Under the pieces are notes generated by a model, which was not told the DNA's origin, made no database searches, and worked only from the letters and a program-made list of their open reading frames with translations. 60,948 nt of DNA. It comes from Calothrix sp. HK-06. Its GTDB lineage: Bacteria > Cyanobacteriota > Cyanobacteriia > Cyanobacteriales > Nostocaceae. The stretch spans positions 1 to 60,948 of the forward strand of contig NZ_MRCD01000052.1 of assembly GCF_001904745.1 (NCBI RefSeq), read 5' to 3'. Positions 479-58,415 of the stretch are shown here, in pieces; the stretch's first letter is position 1, and each line of letters starts with the position of its first letter. The translations under genes were made by a program, and so were the position numbers.

Positions 479-508
479 AATACGATTAGTGTATCGATTT
501 ACAGTATT
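479..508. promoter_or_regulatory. 30-bp dyad, candidate operator of the aldo/keto reductase gene
   Basis: AATAC-N20-GTATT with an inner TCGATTTACA, 32 bases before the start codon at 541. It belongs to a family of similar dyads (4192, 17990, 19937, 26213, 28414, 31907, 33268, 33539, 46721, 53126, 56050, 58386). The outer arm continues as GTATTAT, so it could overlap a -10 element. Confidence 0.6.
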
Positions 509-540
509 ATTATAGATAACTGACAAGATAATACAAAAAT

Positions 541-1578
541 ATGCAGTACAAACAACTTGGTGAAAGTGACATCAAAGTTTCAGAAATTTGTCTGGGAACC
601 ATGACCTACGGGCACCAAAATACTATTGAAGAAGCTCACCAACAATTAGACTATGCTGTTTCTCAAGGTGTAAATTTTCTTGATGCAGCAGAGATGTATC
701 CCGTTCCACCTCGTGGAGAAACCTATGGCTTTACAGAAACTTACATTGGGAAATGGTTAAAGCACCAGCAACGAGATAAACTGATTGTTGCCACAAAAAT
801 CGCTGGCCCTGGTCGTCATCTTAAGTGGGTACGTGATGGAGGTAATGCAATTGACAGAATTAACGTTAAACAAGCAGTAGATGATAGCTTGAAGCGATTG
901 CAAACAGATTATATAGACCTATATCAAATTCACTGGCCAGACCGCTACGTTCCTTTATTTGGCAATAAAGTATTTGACCCAAATCAAGAAAGAGAGACTG
1001 TTCCTATTTCTGAACAGTTATCGATTTTTGCCGACTTGATCAAAGAAGGAAAGATTCGGTATATAGGTTTAAGTAATGAAACTCCTTGGGGAATTGCTAC
1101 ATTTAGTAGTATTTCCAAGCAGTTAGGATTACCCAAAGTTGTTTCTATTCAAAATGCTTACAACTTGTTGAACCGGGTATTTGATTGGACATTTGCAGAA
1201 GCTTCTTACCATGAAAATATTGGGTTACTAGCTTATAGTCCTTTGGCATTTGGTTACTTAACTGGTAAATATTTATATGGCAAACCACAAAAGACAAGAA
1301 TTACTTTGTTTGAAGGTTTTGGTCAGCGCTATAATAAGCCAAATGTCACTGAAGCTGTAGCTGCTTATGTCGAAATTGCCAAGAAATATAAGCTAACACC
1401 AGCTTCCTTGGCTTTAGCATTTGTGCGAAGTCGTTGGTTTGTTAGCAGCACAATTATTGGCGCCACTACTTTAGAGCAACTTCAAGAAAATTTGGAAAGT
1501 ATAGATGTAGTTCTCGATGAAGAGATTTTGGCTGAATTGGATGCTGTTCATACTCGTTATCCTAATCCCGCTCCATAG
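541..1578 (+). CDS. Aldo/keto reductase, Tas-like
   Basis: An NADPH-dependent aldo/keto reductase of 345 residues, the usual length of the Tas branch. The TIM-barrel signature starts at once (KQLGESDIKVSEICLGTM). The catalytic Asp48 and Tyr53 (DAAEMYP) and Lys86 (ATKIAG) are visible. The fourth catalytic residue lies in YQIHWPDRY near residue 131, and the C-terminal cofactor segment is in STIIGATTLEQLQENL. Such enzymes reduce aldehydes or ketones in the cytoplasm; the substrate cannot be read from sequence. The gene stands alone behind a 30-bp dyad at 479-508 and a decayed copy of its own 3' end. Confidence 0.9.
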   Translation: MQYKQLGESDIKVSEICLGTMTYGHQNTIEEAHQQLDYAVSQGVNFLDAAEMYPVPPRGETYGFTETYIGKWLKHQQRDKLIVATKIAGPGRHLKWVRDGGNAIDRINVKQAVDDSLKRLQTDYIDLYQIHWPDRYVPLFGNKVFDPNQERETVPISEQLSIFADLIKEGKIRYIGLSNETPWGIATFSSISKQLGLPKVVSIQNAYNLLNRVFDWTFAEASYHENIGLLAYSPLAFGYLTGKYLYGKPQKTRITLFEGFGQRYNKPNVTEAVAAYVEIAKKYKLTPASLALAFVRSRWFVSSTIIGATTLEQLQENLESIDVVLDEEILAELDAVHTRYPNPAP

Positions 1579-1618
1579 GGAAAATAAGGCGCCCTAAAAT
1601 TTATATATTTATGAAAAT

Positions 1619-1692
1619 GTAGAGACGTTACATGTAACTGAGCCACTGCCATGCGGGGGTTCCCCCCGAGTCGCGCAAGTGGCGTTCTCTAC
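1619..1692. repeat. Palindromic dispersed repeat, possible terminator
   Basis: The ends GTAGAGA and TCTCTAC are inverted. Inside are a GCCACT/AGTGGC pair and a GGGGGTTCCCCCC core. GTAGAGACGTTACATGTAAC also begins the repeats at 20771 and 46491. It lies between convergent genes and could end transcription from both. Confidence 0.55.
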
Positions 1693-1713
1693 AGGGGTTT
1701 TTCAACAAGACAT

Positions 1714-2385
1714 TTAATCAGCGACAACCAGCGCAATTGCTAACCCGTCGTATCCCTTGCTGCCGACTGTTTGAATTGTAGTTGCTTTGACTCGTGGTTC
1801 AGCTGCTAGTAGTGTATTAAATTTACGCACACCTTGAACATTTTCATCAGTGCTATCCGCATCAATTACTGCCCCTTTACGGATAACATTATCGACAATT
1901 ATTACACTGCCACGTCGAGTTAGTTTCAGTGCCCAAGTGAAATAATCTGGAATATTTGCTTTATCAGCATCTATAAAGACAAAATCGAAGGGTGCTTGAC
2001 CTTCAGTAGCAAGCTGCGGCAATGTATCTAGTGCTGCTCCGATGCGGATTTCTACAATATTAGCTAGCCCAGCCCGTTCGATGTTCTCACGCGCGACTTT
2101 AGCATGTTTAAGATTGGCTTCTAGAGTAATTAATTTGCCATCTGCTGGTAGTGCCCGTGCCAGCCAAATGGTACTGTAACCTGCCAATGTCCCTAATTCT
2201 AAGATTCTACGGGCGCCTTGAATTTGAGCAAGAATATGCAGTAGTTTCCCTTGATTAGGAGCAACATTAATTTGAGGCAATTCAGCATCAATTGTAGATT
2301 GGATAGTGGCATCCAGTGCTGAGTCGGAGAGTACAAGTAAATCGTTGATGTAGTTATCAACCGCAGTCCATTGAGTTTGAGTCAT
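1714..2385 (-). CDS. Class I SAM-dependent O-methyltransferase (CCoAOMT-like)
   Basis: A 223-residue protein of the caffeoyl-CoA O-methyltransferase family. The SAM-binding motif ILELGTLAGYST is at residues 61-72. The metal-binding region FVFIDADKANIPDYF carries Asp139 and Asp141. Family members methylate catechol-type hydroxyls with a divalent metal; cyanobacterial homologues are often annotated without a known substrate. The gene is monocistronic, reads away from the HAD gene, and ends next to the palindrome at 1619-1692. No candidate operator dyad lies upstream. Confidence 0.88.
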   Translation of the reverse strand: MTQTQWTAVDNYINDLLVLSDSALDATIQSTIDAELPQINVAPNQGKLLHILAQIQGARRILELGTLAGYSTIWLARALPADGKLITLEANLKHAKVARENIERAGLANIVEIRIGAALDTLPQLATEGQAPFDFVFIDADKANIPDYFTWALKLTRRGSVIIVDNVIRKGAVIDADSTDENVQGVRKFNTLLAAEPRVKATTIQTVGSKGYDGLAIALVVAD

Positions 2386-17989: not shown

Positions 17990-18019
17990 AATACTGTAAA
18001 TTGACCGACAAACAGTAGT
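17990..18019. promoter_or_regulatory. 30-bp dyad between the monooxygenase and flippase genes
   Basis: AATAC-N20-GTAGT with the inner half TGTAAATTGACC. It lies 170 bases before the flippase start and 268 bases from the divergent monooxygenase start, so it could serve either. Apart from this and the weak copy at 17778, the 467-bp intergenic region holds nothing I can identify. Confidence 0.6.
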
Positions 18020-18188: not shown

Positions 18189-19526
18189 ATGACTAATTCT
18201 TCGATTTCTCAAGCTTCAGGAACCGTTCAGTTAACCGAACTAGCAAAAGATACCAGTGTTGCTTTAATCGTTCAATTTACTGGTTTAGCTCTGATATACC
18301 TAGTTCAGATTTTTTTAGCCCAATGGATGGGTAAAACTGAGTACGGTATCTACGAATATGTCACGTCTTGGTCATTACTATTAGCAATTCCAGCTGAATT
18401 AGGTTTACCAATGACCGTTTTGCGTTTACTTCCAGAATATAGGGTTAAGCGGGACTGGGGAAAACTGCATGGTTTAGTTCGTGGGAGTTGGTTATTAGCG
18501 CTTTTGAATAGTTTACTGCTTATTATTTTAGCTACAGGCACCATTCTAATAATAAATCATTATCATAGCTTTGTTTATGCAACACCGTTATTGTTTAGTA
18601 TGGGATTGGTGTTGTTAAAAGTTTTGGTAAGATTTCAACAAGAAACTGGGAGGGCAATGGAAGATATTCTTACTGCCTTTATTCCATCGCAAATAGTCTT
18701 GCCTATTTTGCTGCTTTGCGGTGGATTTATTTTGCTACAACTAAATCATTCTCTTAATAGTTTGTCAATGATAGGTGTAGCAACACTTATGTTTCTAGTT
18801 GTTGTAGTATGCCAGTTTGGGGTATTGTGGCAGAAATTAAATAAAAAATATGAGCCTGCTACTCCAGTTTATGCTTACCGCGAATGGCTAGGAATAGCCG
18901 TAGTTTTATTAATTCAGGAAGCATCTTTTGCTATTTTGAGCCAAATAGATACTGTGATGATTGGTTCTTTTATTGGACCAGAAGCCGCTGGTATTTATAA
19001 TGCTGCAGTAAAAACAGCAGCTTGGACAAGTTTTGTTTTACAGATAGTGAATATGGTAGCTGCACCTGTATTTACAACTCTTTATGCCCAAGGCGATATT
19101 CAGGGATTACAAAAAACAGTTTCTCACGTCACAAATTGGATTTTCTTTCCAACTTTAGCCATTAGTTTGTTTTTAATGCTTTTCAGCCAGCCAATTCTAA
19201 GTCTTTTTGGTTCAGATTTTATTGAGGCAAGCTGGTCGTTAAAAATTTTGGTTGCGGGGCAAATGATGAATGCGTTATGCGGTTCAGTTGCGATTTTGAT
19301 GATTATGACAGGTCATCAAAAAAAATCTTTACCAGTAGTTGTTTGTAGCGCTTTAATTAATGTTGTTTTGAATGCAATTCTAATTCCATTATTTGGAATT
19401 GCTGGTGCCGCTATTGCCACTAGTTTTACAATGATTGTATGGAATGTGTGGCTAGGTATTTTGGTTGTTAAATATATCGGCGTGCGTCCTTCAATTTTGT
19501 ATAGTCTTTTCCAGTCTGAAGATTAA
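18189..19526 (+). CDS. Oligosaccharide flippase / polysaccharide biosynthesis membrane protein
   Basis: A 445-residue integral membrane protein with about 12-14 hydrophobic segments. It resembles the Wzx-like branch of the MOP superfamily. The N-terminal part (FTGLALIYLVQIFLAQWMG, TEYGIYEY) and the mid part (ILSQIDTVMIGSFIGPEAAG) match the first and seventh helix regions of such flippases. Family members move lipid-linked sugars across the plasma membrane for exopolysaccharide or cell-wall glycan synthesis. No glycosyltransferases lie nearby, so the substrate is open. The gene starts 170 bases after a 30-bp dyad. Confidence 0.87.
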   Translation: MTNSSISQASGTVQLTELAKDTSVALIVQFTGLALIYLVQIFLAQWMGKTEYGIYEYVTSWSLLLAIPAELGLPMTVLRLLPEYRVKRDWGKLHGLVRGSWLLALLNSLLLIILATGTILIINHYHSFVYATPLLFSMGLVLLKVLVRFQQETGRAMEDILTAFIPSQIVLPILLLCGGFILLQLNHSLNSLSMIGVATLMFLVVVVCQFGVLWQKLNKKYEPATPVYAYREWLGIAVVLLIQEASFAILSQIDTVMIGSFIGPEAAGIYNAAVKTAAWTSFVLQIVNMVAAPVFTTLYAQGDIQGLQKTVSHVTNWIFFPTLAISLFLMLFSQPILSLFGSDFIEASWSLKILVAGQMMNALCGSVAILMIMTGHQKKSLPVVVCSALINVVLNAILIPLFGIAGAAIATSFTMIVWNVWLGILVVKYIGVRPSILYSLFQSED

Positions 19527-19936: not shown

Positions 19937-19966
19937 ACTACTGTTATTGCATCAATTTATCGTAGT
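19937..19966. promoter_or_regulatory. 30-bp dyad, candidate operator of the nitroreductase gene
   Basis: ACTAC-N20-GTAGT, perfect in the outer arms, with the inner half CAATTTATC. It lies 134 bases before the nitroreductase start. The rest of 19802-20099 holds no gene I can support. Confidence 0.6.
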
Positions 19967-33568: not shown

Positions 33569-33658
33569 ATTATATTGCCATCTATAGCTTGTTATCACAG
33601 GCTATAGACTATTTCTTATGCAGGTGCCCAAAATAAAAACATTACAACATAGATATAT

Positions 33659-35921: not shown

Positions 35922-35951
35922 AATATTATGGGTAATCAATTCACACGAAAC

Positions 35952-36014: not shown

Positions 36015-36045
36015 AACTCCTAATTATAGGAATATTATAAATCCG

Positions 36046-36507: not shown

Positions 36508-36510
36508 TAG

Positions 36511-36540
36511 CGAACCGCAAAGGACGCAAAGGACGCAAAG
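36511..36540. repeat. 30-bp inverted repeat, left copy
   Basis: CGAACCGCAAAGGACGCAAAG followed by GACGCAAAG. It is the exact inverse of 38897-38926. The two copies flank the block ferredoxin, PNPOx-like, GNAT and HEAT genes. It precedes the ferredoxin start by 21 bases. Confidence 0.9.
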
Positions 36541-36561
36541 AGAAGAATAAAGGACAAAATT

Positions 36562-37344: not shown

Positions 37345-37390
37345 AGATTGTTGCTTTAGTAGTACGTTATGTATTTTATTTTACTCTTCT

Positions 37391-37900: not shown

Positions 37901-37909
37901 TTTATATCT

Positions 37910-38866: not shown

Positions 38867-38896
38867 AATAATATTGCTAATTCTTTTCTTTTCTTC

Positions 38897-38926
38897 CTTT
38901 GCGTCCTTTGCGTCCTTTGCGGTTCG
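38897..38926. repeat. 30-bp inverted repeat, right copy
   Basis: CTTTGCGTCCTTTGCGTCCT followed by TTGCGGTTCG. Exact reverse complement of 36511-36540; the similarity continues for a few purine-rich bases outside. Confidence 0.9.
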
Positions 38927-38946
38927 TTACATAGATATAGTTTTTC

Positions 38947-39981: not shown

Positions 39982-40083
39982 GTTGTAATAATTAAAATTT
40001 GTGTATTTGTTCGGCGCCACGTTTCACAAACCGTGCCGCCAAGAACAACAAATTTCTGTGATTGTTTGCGTTGTGTTACCTTC

Positions 40084-40446
40084 TTAGCCTTCAGAGGGAG
40101 TTATCACGAAAGAGGTAAATTCGGCGATTTTATCACCTCGAAAGCGATAGATATCACAGAAAGCCTGAGTAATAGTTATTCCAGTTTGAACCTGAATTGT
40201 CAAACAACCGTAAGCCGCAACAGAGTCGCCTTCGGCAATCATCGAATCAAATGTCGTTGTTGATGGCGGCGGCGCATCACCCATTGATTTTATCAGTTGG
40301 CGAAGGGCTACTTTTCCTAATGCGGATTTGTCGCCGACCTTTGTCCATTGCGCGTCATCCGTATAAAATGATAAAAATTCTTCCAAATTGTTTGCTCTAA
40401 CCGCAGCATTGAGCTTTTTAACGATTTCTTTGTTTCTATCTGACAT
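40084..40446 (-). CDS. SnoaL/NTF2-like protein
   Basis: A 120-residue cone-shaped NTF2-like fold protein. VKKLNAAVRANNLEEFLSFY and YTDDAQWTKVGDKSALG are typical, and EFCDIYRF-like (here AFCDIYRFRGDKIAEFTSF) ends the sheet. Members include polyketide cyclases, ketosteroid isomerases and stress proteins; no catalytic residues can be assigned. It lies about 185 bases downstream of a WYL-type regulator gene on the same strand, so the regulator may control it. Confidence 0.87.
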   Translation of the reverse strand: MSDRNKEIVKKLNAAVRANNLEEFLSFYTDDAQWTKVGDKSALGKVALRQLIKSMGDAPPPSTTTFDSMIAEGDSVAAYGCLTIQVQTGITITQAFCDIYRFRGDKIAEFTSFVITPSEG

Positions 40447-40630
40447 AAAATAATCTCCGATATGTTCAAATGGATGACTTAGTTAAGCGTTTGAAGAAGG
40501 TGCATCCGATTTAACCGATAACCGCTTGATTGATTCGATGGCGCCTTTCAAACAGGGCACACCTGCCAAAAACCTGATTATCAAAATCTATCTAAACACA
40601 TCGTTTTGACAGTCTTATGTCAGGGGTTGA

Positions 40631-41341
40631 TTAATTTCCGTAAGTTTTTTTTCGATATTGGGCAAAGGTCATCGGCGAAGGTTCAAATTTTTCATCGGTA
40701 AAAATAAGTTCTTCTATTCTCGTAAGCGAAAACGTGCGAAAGTCTTTTCTCAAGCGGCAATACGCGACCAGCACCCAATCACCCTTTTCGCTGCTGTAAA
40801 CTGCAAATGGTTCCAGTTGTCTAGAGGATTTTTGATTCGATTGGTTTGTGTAGTTTATTTTGATGACAAGATACTCGACCAGAGCTTTTTGAATGTCTAA
40901 AAGATACTTACTCTTCACGCTCAAATCAGTGTAAGTTTTTGTAATGCCGATTTTTTCTTCGAGTATCTCCACTCTGGTTTTCAAGTGATCAGGAATGATC
41001 GCCTTTAATTTTTGAACTGCCGATGTAAATTCCTTAATCAGCGATTCATCCTTGCAGGAGTAGATTATAAATCCCGCTGTAATTATCGCATTCGCTTCAT
41101 CTTCGGTAAACATCACGGGTGGAATTCGATAACCCTCTATTAAACTATAACCTTTACCTTCTTCTGTAAAAATGGGAACGCCTGCATCTTCCAAAGCTCT
41201 GATGTCTCTGTAAATAGTCCTAACTGTTACGCCGAATTGTTCTGCAAGTTTCGAGGCTGTCAATAATCGTCTGGATTGCAATTGGGTTAAAATGGCAGTC
41301 AGTCTTGAAAGTCGCTTTGTATTGTTGGGATTCATTGACAT
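40631..41341 (-). CDS. YafY-type HTH/WYL-domain transcriptional regulator
   Basis: A 236-residue regulator with an N-terminal DeoR-type helix-turn-helix (RRLLTASKLAEQFGVTVRTI, residues 22-41, then YRDIRALEDAGVPI). A C-terminal WYL-like sensor follows (DWVLVAYCRLRKDFRTFSLT). Such proteins often regulate a neighbouring gene, here probably the SnoaL-like gene downstream. It has no GGCGCC sites, unlike most genes around. It is one of only two evident DNA-binding regulators in the window and could be, but is not shown to be, linked to the 30-bp dyads. Confidence 0.92.
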   Translation of the reverse strand: MSMNPNNTKRLSRLTAILTQLQSRRLLTASKLAEQFGVTVRTIYRDIRALEDAGVPIFTEEGKGYSLIEGYRIPPVMFTEDEANAIITAGFIIYSCKDESLIKEFTSAVQKLKAIIPDHLKTRVEILEEKIGITKTYTDLSVKSKYLLDIQKALVEYLVIKINYTNQSNQKSSRQLEPFAVYSSEKGDWVLVAYCRLRKDFRTFSLTRIEELIFTDEKFEPSPMTFAQYRKKTYGN

Positions 41342-41494
41342 TTGGTGTGGAAAAGGGTGGTAATATGATAATACAAATGCATTGATGTAAGATTGTCGCT
41401 GTCATCTAAAAATAAATTAAGAAATTATTGTTATTTTAGCTACTATGTATTAGTCATACTGTAGTTTTTACTTAGAAGTGCAAGATATAAGCGA

Positions 41495-42247
41495 ATGAAT
41501 CTCTCAAGCGACATCGAACTTGCTTCTTATAGCTCATGGCAAGCTTTTGAGCAAATAGATTACTATGGCTGGATTATACGTTTTGCCAACGGATATACAA
41601 AGCGAGCGAATTCTGTCAATGTACTTACGAAAGATTTTGGAAACTTACTTACGATGGTTGAGCATTGCGAGTCTTTTTATAGAGAGCGGAAACAACCAAC
41701 TATTTTTAGACTTTTATCATTTGTTGATGACGCATCATTAGATTCTTACCTTGCTAATATAGGTTATAAATACATTGACCCATCACTTGTACTTTATCAA
41801 AAGCTAGATTATAGCTATAATCAACCGCTTTCTTTAATTACTGTTGAGCAGAAATTGTGGATGCATACTTACTGTAGCATTGCAGGAATTAATTTATCTG
41901 CTCAAGAAAATCATATGAAAATTCTTAGCCAAGTTCCTAAACAATCTCTTTTTGCTATTCTTGAAGAAAATGGTCAGGCTGTAGCTTGCGGAGTCGGTGT
42001 TATTTGTAATAGTTATTTTGGAATTTTTGATATAATTACTCAGCAGCGATCTCGCAACAAAGGATACGGAACAAAATTAATAATGAATATGCTTTCGTGG
42101 GCTTGGAAAGCTGGAGCGCAAGATGCATATGTTCAGGTTATGGCTGCAAATGCTCCAGCGGTACGTCTTTATGAGAAATTAGGATATCGCCGTCTATATC
42201 ACTATTGGTATCGCATTCAAAGTCAAAACTGGAGTGTAGAAGAATGA
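41495..42247 (+). CDS. GNAT-family acetyltransferase
   Basis: A 250-residue protein with a GNAT domain in the C-terminal half: FAILEENGQAVACGVGVICN, the acetyl-CoA loop QRSRNKGYGTKLIMNMLSWA and VMAANAPAVRLYEKLGYRRL. The N-terminal 110 residues are a degenerate GNAT-like half, so the architecture is a tandem GNAT. Substrate unknown. Its stop codon overlaps the start of the kinase gene (ATGA), which shows translational coupling. Confidence 0.88.
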   Translation: MNLSSDIELASYSSWQAFEQIDYYGWIIRFANGYTKRANSVNVLTKDFGNLLTMVEHCESFYRERKQPTIFRLLSFVDDASLDSYLANIGYKYIDPSLVLYQKLDYSYNQPLSLITVEQKLWMHTYCSIAGINLSAQENHMKILSQVPKQSLFAILEENGQAVACGVGVICNSYFGIFDIITQQRSRNKGYGTKLIMNMLSWAWKAGAQDAYVQVMAANAPAVRLYEKLGYRRLYHYWYRIQSQNWSVEE

Positions 42248-42858
42248 CAGAAAATATCATCGAGACTATAAGTTTTCAGGCTCAGTCTTGTGAAACACGA
42301 GTGATTTTAATTGGTGGCGCCTCTCATACAGGAAAATCAACCCTTGCCCAAGCTTTGGCATCACACCTTGGTTGGAATTATCGTTCCACAGACAAACTTG
42401 CTCGACATCCTGGGCGCCCTTGGGTAAGTGCATATGGAAAGGCTATTCCAGAACACGTAGTAAAACATTATAATGAATTGTCTGTCGAAGCTCTTTTTTT
42501 AGATGTATTGTCACATTATGAGCAAAATGTGATACCACAAGTTGAGGCTATTATTCATTCTCATGCCTCTGGAAAATCTACAGAATGCCTTATACTCGAA
42601 GGGTCTGCGTTATGGCCAGCATTTGTAACTAATTTAGTTAGTGAAAAAGGTGTTAAAGCAATTTGGCTTACGGCTTCTGAGCAACTCCTTCAAAACCGAA
42701 TCAAGTATGGAAGTAATTTTTGTAATGTTTGTGAGAATGAAAAACATTTAATTCAAAAGTTTTTGCATCTTACCTTATTCTACAATAAACGTATGAGAGA
42801 AGAGATTGACCGTCTTGGATATACGTATGACGAAATTTTTAATGAAAGAAATTTTTAA
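42244..42858 (+). CDS. P-loop kinase-like protein
   Basis: A 204-residue protein with Walker A VILIGGASHTGKSTLAQALA at residues 19-38. STDKLARHPGRPW may form the lid or substrate pocket, and the Walker B equivalent is ECLILEGSALWP. It resembles shikimate-kinase-like or 2-phosphoglycerate-kinase-like proteins of unknown substrate. I choose the ATG at 42244 that overlaps the previous stop by one codon pair. The pair with the tandem GNAT gene suggests a modification function, perhaps on the same class of small molecule. Confidence 0.85.
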   Translation: MTENIIETISFQAQSCETRVILIGGASHTGKSTLAQALASHLGWNYRSTDKLARHPGRPWVSAYGKAIPEHVVKHYNELSVEALFLDVLSHYEQNVIPQVEAIIHSHASGKSTECLILEGSALWPAFVTNLVSEKGVKAIWLTASEQLLQNRIKYGSNFCNVCENEKHLIQKFLHLTLFYNKRMREEIDRLGYTYDEIFNERNF

Positions 42859-42922
42859 TGAAACAGATATTGCTTTTGATTGCAACAATTGTTATATTAA
42901 AAATTTAATTGAGGTATAGATA

Positions 42923-43882
42923 TTGAGTTGGATAGTTTTGTCTTACTCGCTTCCTTCTAAATCGTCTTCTAGTCCTCGTGTGGCATTATGGCGCCGACTG
43001 CGACGAATAGGAGCAATTTCGATGAAAACTGGTATTCATATTCTGCCTGCTCGTGATGAGTGTATTGAATCGTTCCAATGGCTAGCGCAGGAAGTACAAC
43101 AAACGAAAGGTGAAGCTTTAATAATGCGGGTCGAACGATTTGAGGGGTTAGCAGATTCAGAAATTATAGAGCTATTCCGTACTGCGCGCAGCCAAGAATA
43201 TCAAGAGATTGAAGCCCAAGCAATAAAACTGGAAAAGTCCATAGAAAAGTCTACAAGTGTCGGCGCCAGTTTGGAACGCAGCAGTTTTCTGGAAACTTTA
43301 GAAAAACTACGGAAACAGCATAGCGAAATTGCGCGCGTGGACTTTTTTGATTGTATTGATGGACAACGCTTAATAACTACATTGAACCGTTTATCTCAAA
43401 CACTCTCTTTAAGTATTTCTACTGTAAATATACAACATACGGCAATTACTGAATACCAAAATAAACGATGGGTAACAAGACCTAGACCTTATATAGACCG
43501 CCTAGCCTGCATTTGGCTAATTCGTCGATTTATTAATTCAAATGCCGAAATTCGATATTCTCATGAGGCTGACCCTGATGAAGTTTCCTTTGAAATGAAA
43601 GATGCTCAATTTGGACATTGTGGTAATTTTTGCACTTTTGAGGTGATGGCAGGTGCATTTCGTTTAAATAAACCAGGAATACAAGCTATCGGAGAAATTG
43701 TGCATGAAATTGATTTGCGAGACGGACAATACGCGCGTCCTGAAACCGCAGGAGTAGATGCTCTCTTACAAGGCTGGTTTATTGCAAATATGAGTGACAC
43801 TGAACTAGAAACCTGCGGTATCAACCTGTTTGAGGGTTTATATGCTGTGTTCGCCAAACAGCAGCGTGAGTTCGAGAATTAG
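42923..43882 (+). CDS. chrB: ChrB-family chromate resistance protein
   Basis: A 319-residue ChrB homologue. The N-terminal domain reads WIVLSYSLPSKSSSSPRVAL with LWRRLRRIGAISMKTGIHIL. The ChrB C-terminal domain begins WVTRPRPYIDRLACIWLIRR and contains FGHCGNFCTFEVM and HEIDLRDGQYARPETAG. In proteobacteria ChrB is a chromate-sensing regulator for the ChrA exporter. The start is a TTG at 42923 with GAGG eight bases upstream. No chrA is nearby; a general MFS transporter gene follows after about 100 bases. Confidence 0.93.
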   Translation: MSWIVLSYSLPSKSSSSPRVALWRRLRRIGAISMKTGIHILPARDECIESFQWLAQEVQQTKGEALIMRVERFEGLADSEIIELFRTARSQEYQEIEAQAIKLEKSIEKSTSVGASLERSSFLETLEKLRKQHSEIARVDFFDCIDGQRLITTLNRLSQTLSLSISTVNIQHTAITEYQNKRWVTRPRPYIDRLACIWLIRRFINSNAEIRYSHEADPDEVSFEMKDAQFGHCGNFCTFEVMAGAFRLNKPGIQAIGEIVHEIDLRDGQYARPETAGVDALLQGWFIANMSDTELETCGINLFEGLYAVFAKQQREFEN

Positions 43883-43986
43883 TACAAATACGTGTAACTA
43901 TTTTGTAACAGTGGTTGCTTTATAAAGAAACATCTATTACAGTAAGATTAAATTCAATCAGCTACGCTCTCCTTTTTGGGTTGGCG

Positions 43987-45144
43987 ATGTCTAATAATTC
44001 TGCATTTTTGCTTCTATGTTCAATTGGGGGATTGGCAATTTTTAGTTCGACAATCGCCAAAAACCCAGTGTTGCCTATCCTGACTCAACAGTTAGGCGCC
44101 AACCCAGCTACCATTGGGGCAATCGCCGCAACCTCGACACTAACTGGCATCTTAGCTAGTTTTCCAGCAGGACTACTTAGTGACTACTGGGGCAGAAAGC
44201 CTTTGTTAATGTTTGCAGGAGTAGTGTTTTGCAGCGCACCTCTAGCTTATTTATTAGTCTTCAATCCCTGGCAACTGGCGTTAGTACGTGGATATCATGG
44301 ATTGGCAACGGCGATTCTTAGTCCAGTAGCAATGGCTTATGTAACCGATTTGGCGCCCACCCATAAGGGAGAACGCTTAGGTTGGTATTCCTCGTTTACA
44401 CTGGCAGGACGTGCATTGGCGCCCGTAGTTGGCGGTTTATTTCTAACCGTAAGTACATGGCAATCTGTTTATGTCGTATGTGGCATTGTGGGCATCCTGA
44501 CTTTGGTCGGGATGAAACTACTGCCTCAAACCAAAACAAAGCGCAATCGAAAAATCAGGCAGATTAACTCAACTTTACCTGCGATTAGGAGAATTTTGTC
44601 TCATCGCATGATTCTAATTACGAGTTTGGTAGAAGCTGCTCAGTTTCTGGCATTTGGCGCCGTTGAAACTTTTCTGCCACTATACGCCTTGAGTATTGGA
44701 ATTGATAAAGCTGCTGTTGGATTAATTTTTGCCAGTCAGGTTGGAATTAAGGTACTAGCACGTCCTTTCATGGGTCGGATGAGTGACCGTTATGGACCCA
44801 AGCGGCAGATTGTCGTAGGTCTTCTGCTTACCAGCGTTGCAATGTGGCTTTTCTGCCAAACCCAATCAGTAGTTTTACTACTGTTAATCTCAGCCGTATT
44901 TGGATTAGGAATTGCCATCTCCTCATCTGCAACATCAGCTTTTGTAGCAGAGTTAGCTCCTATAGATAGTCGTGGTACTGCATTGGGAATTATGAGCGCA
45001 ATTATGGACGTGGGGCAGGCAAGCGGCCCTGTTTTATTGGGATTTTTACTGATGCATACGTCTTATCAAATTGGTTTTACAGTTGTTGGAGGATTGCTTT
45101 TGGCGAGTAGTGTATTTTTTGCTTTGGCTGCAACAGAAACATAA
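43987..45144 (+). CDS. MFS transporter
   Basis: A 385-residue major facilitator with about 12 helices. The start MSNNSAFLLLCSIGGLAIFS is followed by PVLPILTQQLGANPATIGAI, and the loop motif is GLLSDYWGRKPLLM. It matches the DHA1-type drug/proton antiporter group. I start at the ATG at 43987; an upstream TTG at 43915 is possible. It lies in the ChrB cluster where ChrA would be expected, so it may export chromate or another oxyanion, though the family does not normally do that. Confidence 0.88.
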   Translation: MSNNSAFLLLCSIGGLAIFSSTIAKNPVLPILTQQLGANPATIGAIAATSTLTGILASFPAGLLSDYWGRKPLLMFAGVVFCSAPLAYLLVFNPWQLALVRGYHGLATAILSPVAMAYVTDLAPTHKGERLGWYSSFTLAGRALAPVVGGLFLTVSTWQSVYVVCGIVGILTLVGMKLLPQTKTKRNRKIRQINSTLPAIRRILSHRMILITSLVEAAQFLAFGAVETFLPLYALSIGIDKAAVGLIFASQVGIKVLARPFMGRMSDRYGPKRQIVVGLLLTSVAMWLFCQTQSVVLLLLISAVFGLGIAISSSATSAFVAELAPIDSRGTALGIMSAIMDVGQASGPVLLGFLLMHTSYQIGFTVVGGLLLASSVFFALAATET

Positions 45145-45159
45145 AAATCGGAGGTTTGA

Positions 45160-45471
45160 ATGACTGTACAGGCGCCAAAACCGCTGGTTTGCGTTCGTAG
45201 TGTTGAGATTCCTAAAACTAATGAACAAGCTTTTTTTGATTGGATAGAGTCAAATAGGGAATTAAGACAACGATATGGCATTTTGATGGAGCGAATTCTC
45301 AAGCCTACTGATAATCAGGGGGAATGGTTGATTATCACAATGTGGGAAAGTGAGGAGAAGTTTGAGAAGTGGTTAGTTGCAAAAGAAAAGCCAAGTTTTG
45401 ATGCTTCACCAGGACACGCGCTAGTCAAATTTGGCAAAATCAAACGCTATGATACGCAAGCTGGTTATTAA
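45160..45471 (+). CDS. Antibiotic biosynthesis monooxygenase-like (ABM) protein
   Basis: A 103-residue ferredoxin-like fold protein. VCVRSVEIPKTNEQAFFDWI and WLIITMWESEEKFEKWLVAK are the ABM/NIPSNAP pattern. Members include quinol monooxygenases and haem-degrading enzymes. Neither catalytic residues nor haem ligands are evident. It begins 15 bases after the MFS gene and 27 bases before the ChrB-C gene, so it is part of the operon. Confidence 0.87.
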   Translation: MTVQAPKPLVCVRSVEIPKTNEQAFFDWIESNRELRQRYGILMERILKPTDNQGEWLIITMWESEEKFEKWLVAKEKPSFDASPGHALVKFGKIKRYDTQAGY

Positions 45472-45498
45472 TTTATAAATTAAAAGGGAAGACTTTAA

Positions 45499-45939
45499 AT
45501 GAAATGGGTAACACGCAAACACATTCGGGTAAATAGAGTTGCAACACCTTGGTTAATTCAAAGATTTGTTGATAAACAAGCAGAGTTTCTTTTTGTAGAG
45601 CCTGTAGAAGTTACTCAAGTCGAGCAGTCCCATAATGCCATTGGTTTTGATGCTCCCGGCGCCAAGTATAACCATGACTCTGGTATTACTTCCTTTGAAC
45701 AAGTTATTCGAGACTATAACTTAAATGATTCTGTATTAAAGGAATTACTTGAGATTGTTCATGCTGCTGATATTCCAGGCGCCATTGAACAAAGACCAGA
45801 AGCAAGTGGGCTGAGAGCAATTAGCCACGGTTTTCCCTTGGTGACAAATAACGATGATGAAACTTTGCAAAAAGCATTCTTTGTTTACGACTCTTTGTAT
45901 GCATACCTGCAAGCGCGTCAGCAAAATCAGGTGAAATAG
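45499..45939 (+). CDS. ChrB C-terminal domain protein
   Basis: A 146-residue protein that is only the ChrB C-terminal domain: KWVTRKHIRVNRVATPWLIQ, then GAKYNHDSGITSFEQVIRDY and HAADIPGAIEQRPEASGLRA. It lacks the N-terminal half found in the ChrB gene at 42923. It conserves the Arg and Trp positions of the full gene. A stand-alone domain of this kind may have an enzymatic role rather than sensing. It lies in the ChrB-MFS operon. Confidence 0.9.
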   Translation: MKWVTRKHIRVNRVATPWLIQRFVDKQAEFLFVEPVEVTQVEQSHNAIGFDAPGAKYNHDSGITSFEQVIRDYNLNDSVLKELLEIVHAADIPGAIEQRPEASGLRAISHGFPLVTNNDDETLQKAFFVYDSLYAYLQARQQNQVK

Positions 45940-45985
45940 TTTTTTAAGCTCACATATCGAACTTACACTTAACGGAGAAAAACAA

Positions 45986-46450
45986 ATGCCAAGTGAAATT
46001 ACCAACGAAACTGGATTGATTCCCTTACAAGCTGATACAACTCTTTTACAAGACCCCAAAAAATTCAGTAATGGCGACCTTAAAACTCTAGAAGAAATAG
46101 CTCAATTCAATCCTCGCTTTTTTGTTCGGCGCCGGATTTTCTTAACTGATTCAATGCACTTTAACATTTATTGTATTGAGCCAGGACAATCTAACCCATT
46201 ACATAAGCACTCTCAAAGTGATGAAATCTGTTACTTTGTGCAAGGAACAGGAGATGTAATTGTTGGGGATGAAATTGGCGCCGTTAAGTCTGGAGACTGC
46301 GTTCATATTCCCAAAGATGTCGGACATGAAATTATTAATACTGGTACAGAGAGAATGATTGTAGTCTTAGCTCAATCACCTCTTCCCTGTGCCCATGAAA
46401 AAGTACCCAACCCACCTTCCGAATATCGCAGAGTTGAATTCAGCCATTAA
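45986..46450 (+). CDS. Cupin-domain protein
   Basis: A 154-residue single-cupin protein. The first motif, PGQSNPLHKHSQSDEICYFV, supplies His, His and Glu, and the second, GDCVHIPKDVGHEI, the third His of a metal site. Such cupins are metal-binding dioxygenases, isomerases or sensors. It lies 46 bases after the ChrB-C gene and probably ends that operon. A perfect palindrome lies downstream at 46491. Confidence 0.92.
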   Translation: MPSEITNETGLIPLQADTTLLQDPKKFSNGDLKTLEEIAQFNPRFFVRRRIFLTDSMHFNIYCIEPGQSNPLHKHSQSDEICYFVQGTGDVIVGDEIGAVKSGDCVHIPKDVGHEIINTGTERMIVVLAQSPLPCAHEKVPNPPSEYRRVEFSH

Positions 46451-46490
46451 ATTCTTTTGGTTATATCATGTCTGGTTGATTGCCCACAAT

Positions 46491-46518
46491 GTAGAGACGT
46501 TACATGTAACGTCTCTAC
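46491..46518. repeat. Perfect 28-bp palindrome, likely terminator
   Basis: GTAGAGACGTTACA is followed by its exact inverse, as in the repeats at 1619 and 20771. It lies 40 bases after the cupin stop. The rest of 46519-46720 is AT-rich with one partial GCGCC-rich repeat near 46595 and no gene. Confidence 0.85.
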
Positions 46519-46720
46519 AAGCATTTTATTACAGTTACGCTACCGGACATGATATTATATCTTGATAGCAACATTTTGACTGCGTTTGTAAAGCGTGCGC
46601 CAAAGGCGCTCTCGCTCGTTTGACTTCATGCTATCTTTGCTATTTTCGACTTCCTCTTAACCGCGATCAGGGGTGTAAAGCGAGACAAATCTTTATGTTC
46701 TTAATGATGAACTTTATTTA

Positions 46721-46750
46721 TACTACTTTATATTGACCGATATTTAGTAG
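46721..46750. promoter_or_regulatory. 30-bp dyad overlapping the HAD operon start region
   Basis: ACTAC-N20-GTAGT, extended to a perfect 8-base pair ATACTACT/AGTAGTAT, with the inner TTGACCGATATTT. It ends only 15 bases before the ATG at 46766, leaving almost no room for a leader with a ribosome binding site. Confidence 0.7.
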
Positions 46751-46765
46751 TATGGTTGATACGTC

Positions 46766-47482
46766 ATGATTAAAGCTGTGCTTTTTGACCTTGATGATAC
46801 GTTAGTAAACCATGATTTAGCAATTAGAAAAGCAGCAGGTATATTATTTGATAGCGTTATGCCTAGCAGTGAACATGAGCGCAAGGTTTTTATTGAGCGA
46901 TGGATATCCATGAACCGAGAGTGGTACAAGCAGTTTTACGCACAAAAAGTGACATTCCAGGAATCGGGGCGAGGAAAACTACGAGACGCATTTTCTACTT
47001 ACGGTTATAAGTTTTCGGTAACAGATACTGATGCCATGTTATCCCAGTATTGGGAGTGTTATCTCAGTCAATGCAGATTATTTGATGATGTTAGTGAATG
47101 TTTCGCGAGGTTACGTGACTATAAAGTTGGGGTAGTTACAAATGGTCAACAGACACAGCAAATAGAGAAACTCAAACGGTGCGGCATTTTCTCTTGTATA
47201 GATGTAGTTGTTACTGCGGAAGCAGCAGGATTTGCAAAGCCTGCACCCCAAATTTTTCTACAAGCCTGTACTGAATTAGGAATACAGGTTGATGAGAGTG
47301 TTTATATTGGAGACAACTTAGAACTAGATGCAATTGCCGCAAGAAACGTAGGCTTAGTAGGAGTTTGGCTTAACCGTCTTCATGATGATTTGAAAAACTA
47401 TTCTCTAGATTTACAGCGAATTAAACGAATTAATATTCTCACTGAACTAGGTGTAATTATCAATACATTAGAGGAACAATGA
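46766..47482 (+). CDS. HAD-superfamily hydrolase, subfamily IA
   Basis: A 238-residue HAD protein of the YjjG-like branch. Motif I is AVLFDLDDTLVNHD (Asp8, Asp10), motif II VVTNGQQTQQIEKL, the lysine is in AGFAKPAPQIF, and the acidic motif is VYIGDNLELDAIAA. Members dephosphorylate nucleotides or FMN, among others. The 30-bp dyad lies right before it. It is followed by hydrolase, GNAT, VOC and methyltransferase genes with short gaps, so it probably leads an operon. Confidence 0.92.
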   Translation: MIKAVLFDLDDTLVNHDLAIRKAAGILFDSVMPSSEHERKVFIERWISMNREWYKQFYAQKVTFQESGRGKLRDAFSTYGYKFSVTDTDAMLSQYWECYLSQCRLFDDVSECFARLRDYKVGVVTNGQQTQQIEKLKRCGIFSCIDVVVTAEAAGFAKPAPQIFLQACTELGIQVDESVYIGDNLELDAIAARNVGLVGVWLNRLHDDLKNYSLDLQRIKRINILTELGVIINTLEEQ

Positions 47483-51677: not shown

Positions 51678-52979
51678 TCATTGTAAACCCGTCTCTAAGT
51701 ATACAGTATGTACAATTTTTTTCATCTCTGGCAACTTCTTATAAAAATAGGTAGCACCTATAAGACAGCAAGCACCACCAAAAAGTAAAGCATTATTAAC
51801 TCCAACTTTATCTGCCAGTCCACCAAAAAATAAATTGCCAAAAGGTAATATTCCTAAAAAACAAGTTGTAAATATACTTGTGACTCGACCTCGCTTATTT
51901 TCATCAGCAATAATTAATTGTACAAAGTTACCAATGGCGGCAAGGGCAAGAGTATTAGTCATCCCAACAATGAAAATTAACACAATAGCAGTTTGTAAAT
52001 CAGTTGAGCGAGAAAAAAGTATTAAAGCTAAACCGAGAATAGTAGTAGAGCTTGCAATAATTTTCTCTAACCCCTTAGCTTTATTACGAAAAACTAAGTA
52101 AATACCTGAAATTATTGAACCAAATGCTGAAGCAGTCATCAGAAAACCCATAGTTTCAGCATTACCATTTAATATATTCTTGGCAAAAATTGGCATCAAA
52201 TTTACATAAGTCATTGCCATAAAACAAATGATAATTTGTAAAATTAGAACACATTTGATTGGTACAAAACTATATGCATAAACAAAACCTTCCTTTAAAT
52301 TATCCCAAACTTTAGCTTTTTTAGCAACAGAATTATTAGGAAGCGACTGAATTTTGACAGTTAAAATAGCAGAAACAAAAGGTAAATAACTAATGACATC
52401 TACCAAAAAACACGAACCTGCTCCACTTTTAGCAAGTAATACACCTCCAATCATCGGACTAATAAACTTAGCTGAATTAACCATGAACGAATGAATAGAA
52501 ATTGCACTATAGGTATCTGTCTTGTTATCTACAAGTCTGGGAATTGCAACTAAACGCGCGGGTAAATCAAAAGCTTTTACTATTCCCTGAAGCATTCCAA
52601 TTACAATAATCCATGTGAAAGTAATGTAACCATTAAGAGTCAGAAAAGTCAAAGTAGCAGATAGTATCATAGATACCAACTGAGTAGCTAGCAGGACATG
52701 CCGTAAACTCCAACGGTCAAGTAAGACTCCCACCAAAGGTGTAATAACCAAACCCATTGCTTGACTAGTGAATCCAGCTATACCAACTAATACAGCAGAA
52801 TTAGTCAACTGATACACCAACCATATCAAAGCAATTTGAGTCATCCAAGACCCAAAGAACGAAAAGCTCTCACCCATCACGAAACAACAAACGTTTAAAG
52901 ATTTAACAGCAGGTGGTATCTGCAAAAAACCAAACAGTTGTTTGCCTGCTTTTGTATTTTCTTGATTACTAGGATGCAT
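51678..52979 (-). CDS. MFS exporter, MFS_3/EntS-like
   Basis: A 433-residue transporter paralogous to the one at 23746. It has the same layout: SFSFFGSWMTQIALIWLVYQ, the loop GVLLDRWSLRHVLL, and DENKRGRVTSIFTTCF. It is more AT-rich than its paralogue and has no GGCGCC. About 12 helices are seen. Substrate unknown. It is expressed alone; two dyads of the 30-bp family (53126, 53213) lie 146 and 233 bases upstream, so an export role in the same regulon is plausible. Confidence 0.9.
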   Translation of the reverse strand: MHPSNQENTKAGKQLFGFLQIPPAVKSLNVCCFVMGESFSFFGSWMTQIALIWLVYQLTNSAVLVGIAGFTSQAMGLVITPLVGVLLDRWSLRHVLLATQLVSMILSATLTFLTLNGYITFTWIIVIGMLQGIVKAFDLPARLVAIPRLVDNKTDTYSAISIHSFMVNSAKFISPMIGGVLLAKSGAGSCFLVDVISYLPFVSAILTVKIQSLPNNSVAKKAKVWDNLKEGFVYAYSFVPIKCVLILQIIICFMAMTYVNLMPIFAKNILNGNAETMGFLMTASAFGSIISGIYLVFRNKAKGLEKIIASSTTILGLALILFSRSTDLQTAIVLIFIVGMTNTLALAAIGNFVQLIIADENKRGRVTSIFTTCFLGILPFGNLFFGGLADKVGVNNALLFGGACCLIGATYFYKKLPEMKKIVHTVYLETGLQ

Positions 52980-53125: not shown

Positions 53126-53155
53126 AATACTTAAATTCAGTCGATTTACCGTAGT
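53126..53155. promoter_or_regulatory. 30-bp dyad upstream of the MFS exporter
   Basis: AATAC-N20-GTAGT with the inner GTCGATTTACC, a close match to the right half-site. It lies 146 bases before the minus-strand MFS start. Confidence 0.6.
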
Positions 53156-53212: not shown

Positions 53213-53242
53213 AATTCTAAAAAGCTATCGACTTACAGTAGG
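53213..53242. promoter_or_regulatory. Degenerate 30-bp dyad abutting a repeat
   Basis: AATTC-N20-GTAGG with the inner GCTATCGACTTACA, almost the same as in the site at 56050. The right arm coincides with the left end (GTAGGGTG) of the repeat at 53238, so the repeat may have entered an operator and destroyed half of its right arm. Confidence 0.45.
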
Positions 53243-55013: not shown

Positions 55014-55976
55014 TTAACTGCTCAGGGGCGCCTGAGAATAGATATGAGCAATTACTTCTTCTAAAGGTGGGTCTTCTATTGCAATATCAGCAACTGAACC
55101 TGCTTGAAGAATATGGCTCATCACCGCTTCAATTGGAGTAATACGAGTATTTACCTCTAACTTCAGCGCGTATTCAGTTCTTTTAAGTTGCGTAACACCA
55201 GCCAAACATATTTGAGGCGCCGCTTGTTTAAATTTCACACTCAAAATCTTTGAACCAAGATATTGGCGCCGCATTGCCGAGACTTTATCATCAAATATTA
55301 CTCTTCCATGATTAATTACTATTACTCGTTGCGCGACCCTTTCAATATCCCCAGCATCATGGCTAGTCAAAAAAACTGTAACACCATTATTTTGATTCCA
55401 CTCACTTATTAAGTCCCGCAACTCTTGACGAGCAATTACATCTAAACCAATAGTCGGCTCATCCAAAAATAATAACTGTGGTGCATGAAGCAAACTTGCC
55501 GCAACTTCCGCACGCATCCTCTGTCCTAATGATAACTTTCGTACTGGTGTACTCCAAAAAGGCGCCAAGTCAAAACGCTCAACAAGTACATCACGACGTT
55601 TAATATATTCCCGACGCTCAATATTATAGATATGAGCAAGTAATTCTAAAGTATCACGAGGTGGTAAGTGATACCACAATTGCGAACGTTGCCCAAACAC
55701 AACTCCAATTTTATAAGCAAGCTGGCGCCGACTTTTCCAAGGATTCAATCCTAGTAAAGATGCTCTACCAGATGTCGGATGCAAAATACCCGTAAGCATT
55801 TTAATAGTAGTAGACTTTCCCGCACCGTTCGGGCCAATAAACGCAACAGCTTCACCCTTCTCGACATTGAGAGTAATATCATCAACCGCGATTATCTCAG
55901 AAACCGCGCGATTCCTTCCCCAACCTCGACTCAAGCTAAAAGTCTTACGTAAATTTTCCAGTTCGACAGCTGCCAT
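55014..55976 (-). CDS. ABC transporter ATP-binding protein (ABC-2 type)
   Basis: A 320-residue ATPase. Walker A is GPNGAGKSTT at residues 48-57, the Q-loop GVVFGQRSQLWYHL, the signature LSLGQRMRAEVAASLL, Walker B LLFLDEPTIGLD and the H-loop FLTSHDAGDIE. The last 90 residues form a regulatory tail. The GQRSQLWY segment is typical of the ATPases that pair with DUF990 permeases. It leads the operon with the two permeases and is divergent from the NtaA-type monooxygenase gene at 56152, with a 30-bp dyad between. Confidence 0.93.
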   Translation of the reverse strand: MAAVELENLRKTFSLSRGWGRNRAVSEIIAVDDITLNVEKGEAVAFIGPNGAGKSTTIKMLTGILHPTSGRASLLGLNPWKSRRQLAYKIGVVFGQRSQLWYHLPPRDTLELLAHIYNIERREYIKRRDVLVERFDLAPFWSTPVRKLSLGQRMRAEVAASLLHAPQLLFLDEPTIGLDVIARQELRDLISEWNQNNGVTVFLTSHDAGDIERVAQRVIVINHGRVIFDDKVSAMRRQYLGSKILSVKFKQAAPQICLAGVTQLKRTEYALKLEVNTRITPIEAVMSHILQAGSVADIAIEDPPLEEVIAHIYSQAPLSS

Positions 55977-56049: not shown

Positions 56050-56079
56050 AATACTATAAAGCTATCGATTTACAGTAGT
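56050..56079. promoter_or_regulatory. 30-bp dyad between ABC exporter and monooxygenase genes
   Basis: AATAC-N20-GTAGT, continuing as GTAGTAT, with the inner TATCGATTTACA. It lies 72 bases before the monooxygenase ATG and 73 bases from the ATPase start. Confidence 0.7.
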
Positions 56080-57519: not shown

Positions 57520-57641
57520 CTCACCTTAAAAATTCATCTCAGCTTAAAAATAAATCAATGAGTGGAATGGCTGTCCCCAGCCGTTCTTATAAAAATCGCG
57601 CCTGTTATTGGATATTTGAGTTTTATTGTGGTTGATTGCAA

Positions 57642-58097
57642 TTAATATTTGCTACCATCTTTATGTAAAAAAATCCAGCCGTTCCCACTCTCCTGAGCTA
57701 CTAAATCATCATCTGGATAATATCCTTCATCATTGGGTGTTCTATCACCAACCTCTAGGTAAACAACTACTTCATTTGACTTATTAAGCAAATGATGTCC
57801 ATCTGCCTCACCTGCGGGAAAACCTGCCATCATACCTGGTGTTAATATTTGCTCTCCTGCATTTGTTATCAATGTAATTTCACCTTTAATTACGTATATA
57901 AATTCATCCTGCTTACTGTGCCAATGTCGAAGCGATGAACAACTCCCTGGTGAGAGGTGGACTAAATTTACGCCAAAATTTTTGATTCCTGCTGAATTTC
58001 CTAGAGCCTGTTTAATGCGTCCAGCTACTCGTGATTGAAATTGTTTGGGATAATTTGAAGTAGTTCTTTGAGGAACATTTTCGGGATTAATTATCAT
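57642..58097 (-). CDS. Cupin-domain protein
   Basis: A 151-residue single-cupin protein. The first cupin motif SLRHWHSKQDEFIYVIKG gives His, His and Glu, and the second, PGMMAGFPAGEADGHHLLN, carries the further His. It belongs to the cupin-2 group. It lies alone between two monooxygenase-related units and converges on the monooxygenase gene at 56152. It is not similar in detail to the cupin at 45986. Confidence 0.9.
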   Translation of the reverse strand: MIINPENVPQRTTSNYPKQFQSRVAGRIKQALGNSAGIKNFGVNLVHLSPGSCSSLRHWHSKQDEFIYVIKGEITLITNAGEQILTPGMMAGFPAGEADGHHLLNKSNEVVVYLEVGDRTPNDEGYYPDDDLVAQESGNGWIFLHKDGSKY

Positions 58098-58257
58098 ATT
58101 CAGTAAATCATTATTATAACATTCCTTGTAGGTGGCAACCAGCTAAACAACTTTTCTGGTTTATTAATTATACATTAGTATTTTCTAATAATTTTTTACT
58201 AAAAATTGTATGAATCAAGCAGCGTCCCGTCAGGATGCCCAAGCAATCGGTAAAATG

Positions 58258-58284
58258 TTGGGTGGAGCTAAGAGCGCAACCCAA
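58258..58284. repeat. Dispersed hairpin repeat
   Basis: TTGGGTGGAGCT and its near-inverse AGCGCAACCCAA with a three-base loop. Common small cyanobacterial-type intergenic repeat. The other bases of 58098-58385 hold no gene I can support. Confidence 0.6.
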
Positions 58285-58385
58285 CCTACGGATATATTTA
58301 GATAATCTAATAATTAGAATAACGTATATTTTGTTTACGCAGGGGTTGTGCTGTGTATCGGCGCCATGCAATACTACTATATAAA

Positions 58386-58415
58386 TCATCGGTAAACCAG
58401 TCGGTGATTAGTATT
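58386..58415. promoter_or_regulatory. 30-bp dyad before the TauD-monooxygenase operon
   Basis: TCATC-N20-GTATT with the inner left half GGTAAACC. The left arm is imperfect. It ends 30 bases before the ATG at 58446. Confidence 0.5.

Follow-up and report, generated by a model that had tools for sequence, protein, structure and literature searches.

What does a palindrome do that recurs in front of gene after gene along a single stretch of a cyanobacterial genome? The stretch in question (here the window: 60,948 nucleotides, contig NZ_MRCD01000052.1 of Calothrix sp. HK-06) was described in an initial annotation as carrying, at 15 positions, a dyad of the form AATAC-N20-GTA(T/G)T which precedes catabolic genes and defines one regulon. 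In filamentous cyanobacteria the dyad very probably serves a genome-wide control system for sulfur shortage as its binding site. That its sites form a sulfur-limitation regulon is a conclusion we hold with high confidence. As the main reader of the dyad we propose, with a probability of roughly 0.7, an Rrf2-family protein of a group which we call clade A/C, a relative of CymR. Genomes and loci are cited below by our own G and L numbers.

The dyad and its shape

All sites were scored with a mirror-symmetric position weight matrix (PWM) of 44 columns, trained on sites of the window. The window scan returned scores of 23.1 to 41.5 at 13 of the 15 positions noted earlier. Thirteen window positions score at least 20, and 200 column-permuted matrices gave none. 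On both strands of the window the exact pattern has nine matches against 0.34 expected, a number reached in 0 of 100 shuffles. The dyad is real, and its occurrence is far above chance.

The arms are less constant than was thought. Six of the 13 main sites match AATAC-N20-GTA(T/G)T exactly (479, 17990, 28414, 33539, 53126 and 56050), with one stray exact match at 48325, but the others match only via the matrix. The half-site AATACxGTAAAT extends further in the consensus pooled from 47 sites of the own genome, which reads AAAATACTGTAAATCGA followed by TCGATTTACAGTATTTT (also written AAAATACTGTAAATCGATCGATTTACAGTATTTT). In these 47 sites the strongest columns are 11-13 bp off centre and conservation ends about 17 bp either side of it; the inner repeat is GTA-N12-TAC. 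The outer arm GTATTAT/GTAGTAT had been likened to a -10 box, with competition between the reader and RNA polymerase as a consequence. Such competition is not evident from the sites: a mirror copy of this arm stands across the centre of the dyad, and because of this the likeness may be incidental.

Two of the claimed positions fail on score. Position 4192, next to a glutathione transferase gene, scores only 7.5, and 17778 appears neither among the top 50 nor, with the symmetric matrix, at threshold 13. Of the pair called weaker, 53213 is sound (25.5) and 17778 is the one without support. The site assigned to 46721 is present, but its correct coordinate is 46722. Position 42902 was drawn in during matrix training and is not listed by the symmetric matrix at threshold 13. 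From 33569 to 46721, about 13 kb with the isomerase, flavoprotein, HEAT, Mrp, WYL and other genes, there is no dyad of at least 13. The absence of dyads before HEAT, Mrp and WYL genes was thus correctly seen between the sites ending at 33568 and starting at 46722, and because of this empty stretch the island in the window must be considered unevenly regulated.

A probable genome-wide sulfur regulon

A model of the sequence alone, derived from the window sites, was run over the genome; the best 150 of 5974 candidates were scored, and strands were merged for counting. At E<=0.01 at least 34 distinct sites are present in 9.99 Mb, 13 in the window and 21 elsewhere. The 21 sites outside the window had no part in training the model. 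The dyad does not occur at similar density in the remainder of the genome or inside genes: outside the window the density is about 100-fold lower, by a model trained on window sites, and coding stretches of the regulator gene introduced below hold the dyad in 0 of 80 cases. A search of plasmid records with a 3-kb stretch of the window gave no match.

The genes behind the sites were assigned to families by Pfam; many of the sites outside the window stand before sulfur genes, sulfonate/taurine-type oxygenases included. In the window they include two TauD-type dioxygenases, an ABC ATPase, luciferase-type monooxygenases and an NMT1-type binding protein. Elsewhere in the genome the dyad precedes a luciferase-type monooxygenase and TauD, NMT1-type binding proteins accompanied by ABC ATPases, an OprB porin, a sulfatase, a sulfatase-maturing enzyme (FGE-sulfatase), an acyl-CoA-dehydrogenase-like protein and two glutathione transferases. 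Weaker sites (PWM 13.1-25.3) are located at three PALP genes (CysK-type cysteine synthase), a rhodanese, and a binding protein, permeases and ATPase of the sulfate type. The dyads do precede catabolic units as claimed, but the set is better read as sulfur acquisition plus sulfur sparing.

The sites are conserved in front of orthologous genes. In relatives 21 of 25 ortholog rows keep an upstream dyad of at least 13, in loci fetched for their dyads and with some rows sharing a place. The misses are the aldo/keto reductase (G015), the flippase (G002), one DLH gene (G015) and a GNAT gene (G002). Among the controls, the orthologs of Mrp and HEAT have the dyad in 0 of 2 cases. Ortholog rows were not found for the MDR, HAD and ABC targets, nor for WYL and the second GNAT gene among the controls. 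The proposal of a single regulon is strongly supported, with sites spread over the genome and over the family.

Sulfur-poor phycocyanin

Sulfur sparing is brought in by phycocyanin. A dyad (PWM 24.3; E 0.017) is positioned about 44 bp 5' of a CpcB gene whose product has 1 Met and 2 Cys; the CpcA which follows has 1 Met and 1 Cys. This cpcB/cpcA pair (L071:7939-9084) hardly contains any Met or Cys apart from the start and the chromophore residues. We compared the best 30 of 45 CpcB loci, from 25 genomes. Nine have 1 Met and 21 have 4-8. A dyad of 20.5-32.5 is found within 700 bp of six of the nine sulfur-poor cpcB genes and of none of the 21 ordinary ones (maximum 3.6). Within the same comparison G001 and G004 have ordinary CpcB only. 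Mazel and Marliere reportedly described in 1989 that sulfur-poor phycocyanin is made under sulfur limitation, and sulfate-driven elemental sparing is said to have been reported by Gutu et al. in 2011.

An Rrf2-family protein as candidate reader

Which protein reads the dyad? The initial annotation saw no matching regulator gene in the window, in agreement with our finding that the candidate is encoded on another contig (G000:C230:20806-21237, locus L069:14807-15241). The annotation proposed a search for a TetR, LysR or GntR-type gene whose own promoter carries the site; a regulator gene with such a promoter exists, but it belongs to the Rrf2 family. Four regulator genes are near dyads in the own genome: Rrf2 A (L069:14807), a Crp-type gene (L069:14038), Rrf2 B (L065:4366) and a LysR gene (L069:4273). 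The first of these is the clade A/C member. It matches Pfam PF02082 (Rrf2) with E 3.2e-32. Its AlphaFold model has a mean pLDDT (predicted local distance difference test) of 79.6 and matches chains of IscR and CymR with E-values between 4e-11 and 3e-9; the best fold and sequence matches are IscR of T. potens and CymR of B. subtilis.

We assembled 83 Rrf2 genes from two own loci and 80 regions fetched from among the regulator hits in the family (42 of clade A/C, 22 of clade B, 19 of a universal paralog, clade U). A dyad of at least 10.1 is present within 450 bp upstream of all 42 clade A/C genes. Upstream of the 19 clade U genes there is none (maximum 1.5), and clade B is mixed, with a dyad of at least 9.9 adjoining nine of 22 genes. 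On the Rrf2 tree the dyad label requires 4 changes versus 25.8 with shuffled labels, and the forks which hold A/C and U are well supported. Next to the clade B gene of the own genome, and divergent to it, L065:5123-6376 encodes a 417-aa protein without a Pfam match at E<=1e-8; a dyad of 33.6 is located between the two. The clade U promoters have an element of their own: 16 of 19 (among L196-L201 and L203-L215) contain AGTGG-N3-ACCGGAGTAT, which differs from the dyad yet has the same GTAT end, and a 17th has ACCGGAGTAT with an altered left arm. Probably this is the operator of paralog U.

A second set consisted of named loci, the best 80 of 157, mostly from Nostocales, sometimes two per genome and overlapping with the 83 genes. 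A dyad of at least 10 is upstream in 67 of 80; permuted matrices gave a mean of 0.18 of 80, with a maximum of 4. Clade B contributes at least two of these loci (L268, L274), and neither has a dyad. Leptolyngbyaceae (L262, L293), Microseira (L260) and Myxacorys (L259) have the upstream dyad as well; the score is 9.0 in Tychonema (L299), and in Chroococcus (L325) the dyad is missing. Calothrix sp. PCC 7716 and PCC 7103 also carry orthologs of the A/C gene. In 33 of the 71 named loci with a score of at least 5, dyad and start codon are separated by exactly 39 bp. Permuted matrices, coding stretches and U promoters served as controls. Windows of 450 bp drawn at random from these fetched regions, 12% of which exceed 10, are unusable for this purpose as the regions were chosen for their sites. 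In the distal stretch from -1500 to -1050 a site is present in 21 of 76 loci; the regulator neighbourhood is thus site-rich, perhaps through other target genes.

Co-occurrence across the family and its exceptions

In 118 genomes of the family we scored the best 53 candidates per genome, called a dyad at E<=1e-4 and counted strands apart. Presence of clade A/C was determined with a hidden Markov model (A2), which leaves a clean gap between 1e-65 and 1e-55. The two-by-two tables were compiled by hand. Dyad and clade A/C regulator are both present in 64 genomes and both missing in 37; nine genomes have the dyad only and eight the regulator only (Fisher p 1.6e-14, uncorrected for relatedness). Part of the regulator-only class is a threshold effect because two of its members, G005 and G012, show hits at E<=1e-3. 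The same-genus genomes G001 and G004 have no A/C or B protein, and they have no dyad at E<=1e-3 among the best 150 candidates per genome.

A number of observations weigh against our reading. Nine of 73 dyad-positive genomes are without an A/C protein, and because of this A/C is held as the most likely reader only. Of the genomes without A/C, G008, G042, G049, G051 and G074 carry 3-6 dyad hits, and G010 has 5 hits at E<=1e-3. G010, G042, G062 and G074 have two Rrf2 proteins only, likewise the dyad-free G001, G004, G014 and G036. Among the named loci, 13 of 80 score below 10. The C-terminal MYYI, considered further below, ends all 83 Rrf2 proteins (A/C 42 of 42, B 22 of 22, U 19 of 19) and does not single out a reader. 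The Crp-type gene co-occurs with the dyad almost equally well and carries a degenerate dyad. As for the regulon, the weaker range already mentioned takes in all the sites at cysteine synthases and the sulfate transporter and those at rhodanese and cpcB3, three of the nine sulfur-poor cpcB genes (G009, G012, G013) have no dyad within 700 bp, and for some targets a link to sulfur is not apparent (MgtC, a pentapeptide protein, a GroES-like protein, a cadmium-transporter family member, a glycosyltransferase).

Strong dyads, up to 42.3, exist in G008, G010, G042 and G074 (L226, L218, L216, L217), in which the A/C gene was not found. By eye, some of these sites precede sulfatase-maturase-like, cysteine-synthase-like, luciferase- and TauD-like genes. 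In these genomes one of three things must apply: another protein reads the dyads, the regulator was recently lost, or it is missing from the assembly.

Other possible readers

The strongest competitor, though an unlikely one, is a protein of the Crp family whose gene (L069:14038-14619) is divergent to the Rrf2 gene. It would be an activator, possibly the counterpart of CysR, and the Rrf2 gene would be one of its targets. With orthologs judged by eye from alignment reach and E-value, gene and dyad are both present in 66 of the 118 genomes, with 7 dyad only, 13 gene only and 32 neither. The gene exists in G049, G051, G062 and G074, all with dyads and without A/C, and in G010. In 13 of 20 sampled genomes dyads of at least 10 are positioned 7-20 bp before its likely start, the A/C-less G036, G049, G051 and G077 included; in the own genome a dyad of 35.2 is at 42 bp. 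In L232-L251 the degenerate dyad before the Crp-type gene keeps its left arm well (ACTACGGTTA..TATCG). CysR affects sulfate assimilation in S. elongatus according to passages of PMC12016511. However, the Crp-type gene is missing from seven of 73 dyad-positive genomes. It does not cover G008 and G042, and G039 and G107 combine dyads with the A/C protein and no Crp-type gene. Conversely, at E<=1e-4 those 13 genomes have the gene but no dyad hits. The recognition site of a Crp dimer spans about 22 bp, and NtcA binds GTA-N8-TAC. The dyad, with GTA-N12-TAC and its strongest columns 11-13 bp from the centre, does not have this spacing.

Slightly less probable again is one other reader for all genomes, such as Rrf2 paralog U, clade B or a further regulator, with A/C as an autoregulated partner or target only. 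G008 (6 hits) and G042 (4 hits, strands apart) favour it, being without both A/C and the Crp protein. Clade B adjoins dyads in the nine of 22 rows mentioned, five of which are from the own genus or G108 and score at least 22. Paralog U fits badly: it occurs in genomes that have no dyad (G001 and G004, for example), and 16 of its 19 promoters carry the other element. The LysR gene (L069:4273-5196, site 17.1) was considered and rejected. At E<=1e-50 six genomes with dyads (G008, G039, G042, G049, G062, G107) lack it, and because of this it is more likely a target than the reader.

That the dyads, palindromic and numerous as they are, should be copies of a short mobile repeat or RNA hairpin and not operators can practically be dismissed: conservation stops about 17 bp from the centre, the copies differ by many substitutions, are mostly intergenic and before functionally related genes, and are absent from the 80 regulator coding stretches.

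Relation to known regulators

The closest parallel to clade A/C is CymR of B. subtilis and S. aureus. According to passages of PMC3828012, CymR with CysK represses sulfur genes when cysteine is ample, and high O-acetylserine separates the two proteins; the same source reports that the motifs of IscR and CymR are alike. The C-terminus of CymR has been modelled as an anchor in CysK (passages of PMC11487621). A/C proteins and CymR share the Rrf2 fold and, putatively in the case of A/C, targets among cysteine, sulfonate and sulfur genes. Their tails resemble each other, MYYI in A/C versus MFYI in CymR of S. aureus and in L. innocua 3lwf; with a similar end in clades B and U and in IscR of T. potens, a CymR cannot be recognised by this tail alone. 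In the single site compared, the arm AATACC opens a B. subtilis CymR site at cysK, CATAATACCAATACAAATAGTCGG... (from a passage of PMC11487621). There are also differences. The A/C gene is cyanobacterial and has the dyad in its own promoter, whereas cymR is described as constitutive in a passage of PMC3519770. The proposed cyanobacterial operator is longer, since its dyad spans about 34 bp and contains GTAAATCGA, and its regulon takes in sulfur-poor phycocyanin. In the own genome three CysK-type genes are themselves near dyads.

IscR, the Rrf2 protein which senses Fe-S clusters, is alike in fold. At the positions which we take to be its cluster-ligand cysteines the A/C proteins differ: the three-cysteine [2Fe-2S] site is absent, A/C proteins carry at most 3 Cys, and only a Cys in the C-terminal helix is common to all 42. 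CysR of Synechococcus elongatus resembles the present system as a cyanobacterial sulfur regulator, and in the present genome the Rrf2 gene has a gene of the Crp family next to it; yet CysR is from another protein family, and in the literature passages on CysR no operator was found. Another cyanobacterial Rrf2 regulator, of Synechocystis, is reportedly needed for psaAB expression (said to be work of Midorikawa in 2009). It is probably one of the universal paralogs and not a member of clade A/C.

The sites of the window

The accepted sites of the window, with their PWM scores and the orthologs of the genes behind them, are as follows.

479 to 508, plus strand: dyad about 33 bp 5' of the aldo/keto reductase gene 541-1578; 39.3, E 7.8e-7 in the genome scan; the single ortholog row (G015) has no site upstream.
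17990 to 18019, plus strand: dyad 5' of the flippase-like gene 18189-19526; 33.8; no site in the 340 bp visible upstream of the G002 ortholog.
19937 to 19966, plus strand: dyad 5' of the nitroreductase gene 20100-20705; 31.7; site of 29.5 at the G015 ortholog.
26213 to 26242, plus strand: dyad between the DLH hydrolase gene 25234-26133 (minus) and the open reading frame 26250-27134 (plus); 38.7; retained in G002 (39.2), the DLH ortholog of G015 being without a site.
28414 to 28443, plus strand: dyad 5' of the TauD-type dioxygenase gene 27347-28315 (minus) and also upstream of the GNAT and HAD genes 28683 and 29156 (plus); 39.4; retained in 4 of 4 TauD ortholog rows (3 places), with no site in the 374 bp visible upstream of the GNAT ortholog of G002.
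31907 to 31936, plus strand: dyad between the genes of the MDR oxidoreductase and NMT1-type binding protein (30844-31863 and 29826-30875, minus) and the methyltransferase gene 32057-32887 (plus); 40.0; the methyltransferase ortholog in G002 retains the site (34.4).
33268 to 33297, plus strand: distal dyad upstream of the LacAB/RpiB-type isomerase gene 33659 and the flavoprotein gene 34209-35921; 38.6; G002 35.0.
33539 to 33568, plus strand: proximal dyad upstream of the same two genes; 29.5.
46722 to 46751, plus strand: dyad about 15 bp 5' of the HAD hydrolase gene 46766-47482; 33.2.
53126 to 53155, plus strand: dyad upstream of the MFS_3 transporter gene 51678-52979 (minus); 30.6.
53213 to 53242, plus strand: second dyad upstream of the same transporter gene; 25.5.
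56050 to 56079, plus strand: dyad between the ABC ATPase gene 55014-55976 (minus) and a luciferase-type monooxygenase gene; 41.5, E 8.2e-8; G002 39.7. The monooxygenase frame is listed from 56023; translation probably begins only downstream of the dyad.
58386 to 58415, minus strand: weakest accepted dyad, 5' of a TauD-type dioxygenase gene and the luciferase-type monooxygenase gene 59368-60723; 23.1, E 0.0068. The TauD-type frame is listed from 58353; its true start, too, is probably downstream of the site.

Proposed mechanism and significance

We propose that the system works like CymR with a new operator; membership in CymR is not claimed. By this analogy the dyad would be a repressor operator. 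A dimer of the A/C Rrf2 protein would bind it and repress while sulfur is plentiful. CysK may be the co-repressor partner, which is plausible from the hydrophobic C-terminal YI tail shared with CymR. When sulfur is short, genes for uptake of organosulfur compounds and sulfate, for C-S bond cleavage and for sulfatases would be released, as would those for cysteine synthesis, detoxification and the sulfur-poor phycocyanin. The sequences themselves show the sites, their place before many sulfur genes and in the promoter of the regulator gene, and the co-occurrence; direct binding, repression, CysK as sensor and sulfur status as signal are what we infer. More tentatively, with the odds somewhat short of even, a CymR-like Rrf2 protein with a cysteine synthase as sensor may control elemental sparing in Nostocales and, through one operator, couple sulfur scavenging to the exchange of the main light-harvesting protein for a nearly Met- and Cys-free phycocyanin.

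In the open-licence papers searched, no sulfur-control operator for filamentous cyanobacteria was found. For sulfur limitation in these organisms the present analysis supplies a cis-element and a list of genes, together with a candidate regulator. If the proposed coupling is true, the long-known sulfur-dependent phycocyanin switch gains its transcriptional regulator, and which protein turns on the sulfur-poor phycocyanin is now directly testable. Further, the findings suggest for the cysteine-synthase/Rrf2 circuit, known from Firmicutes, a possibly much greater age or mobility.

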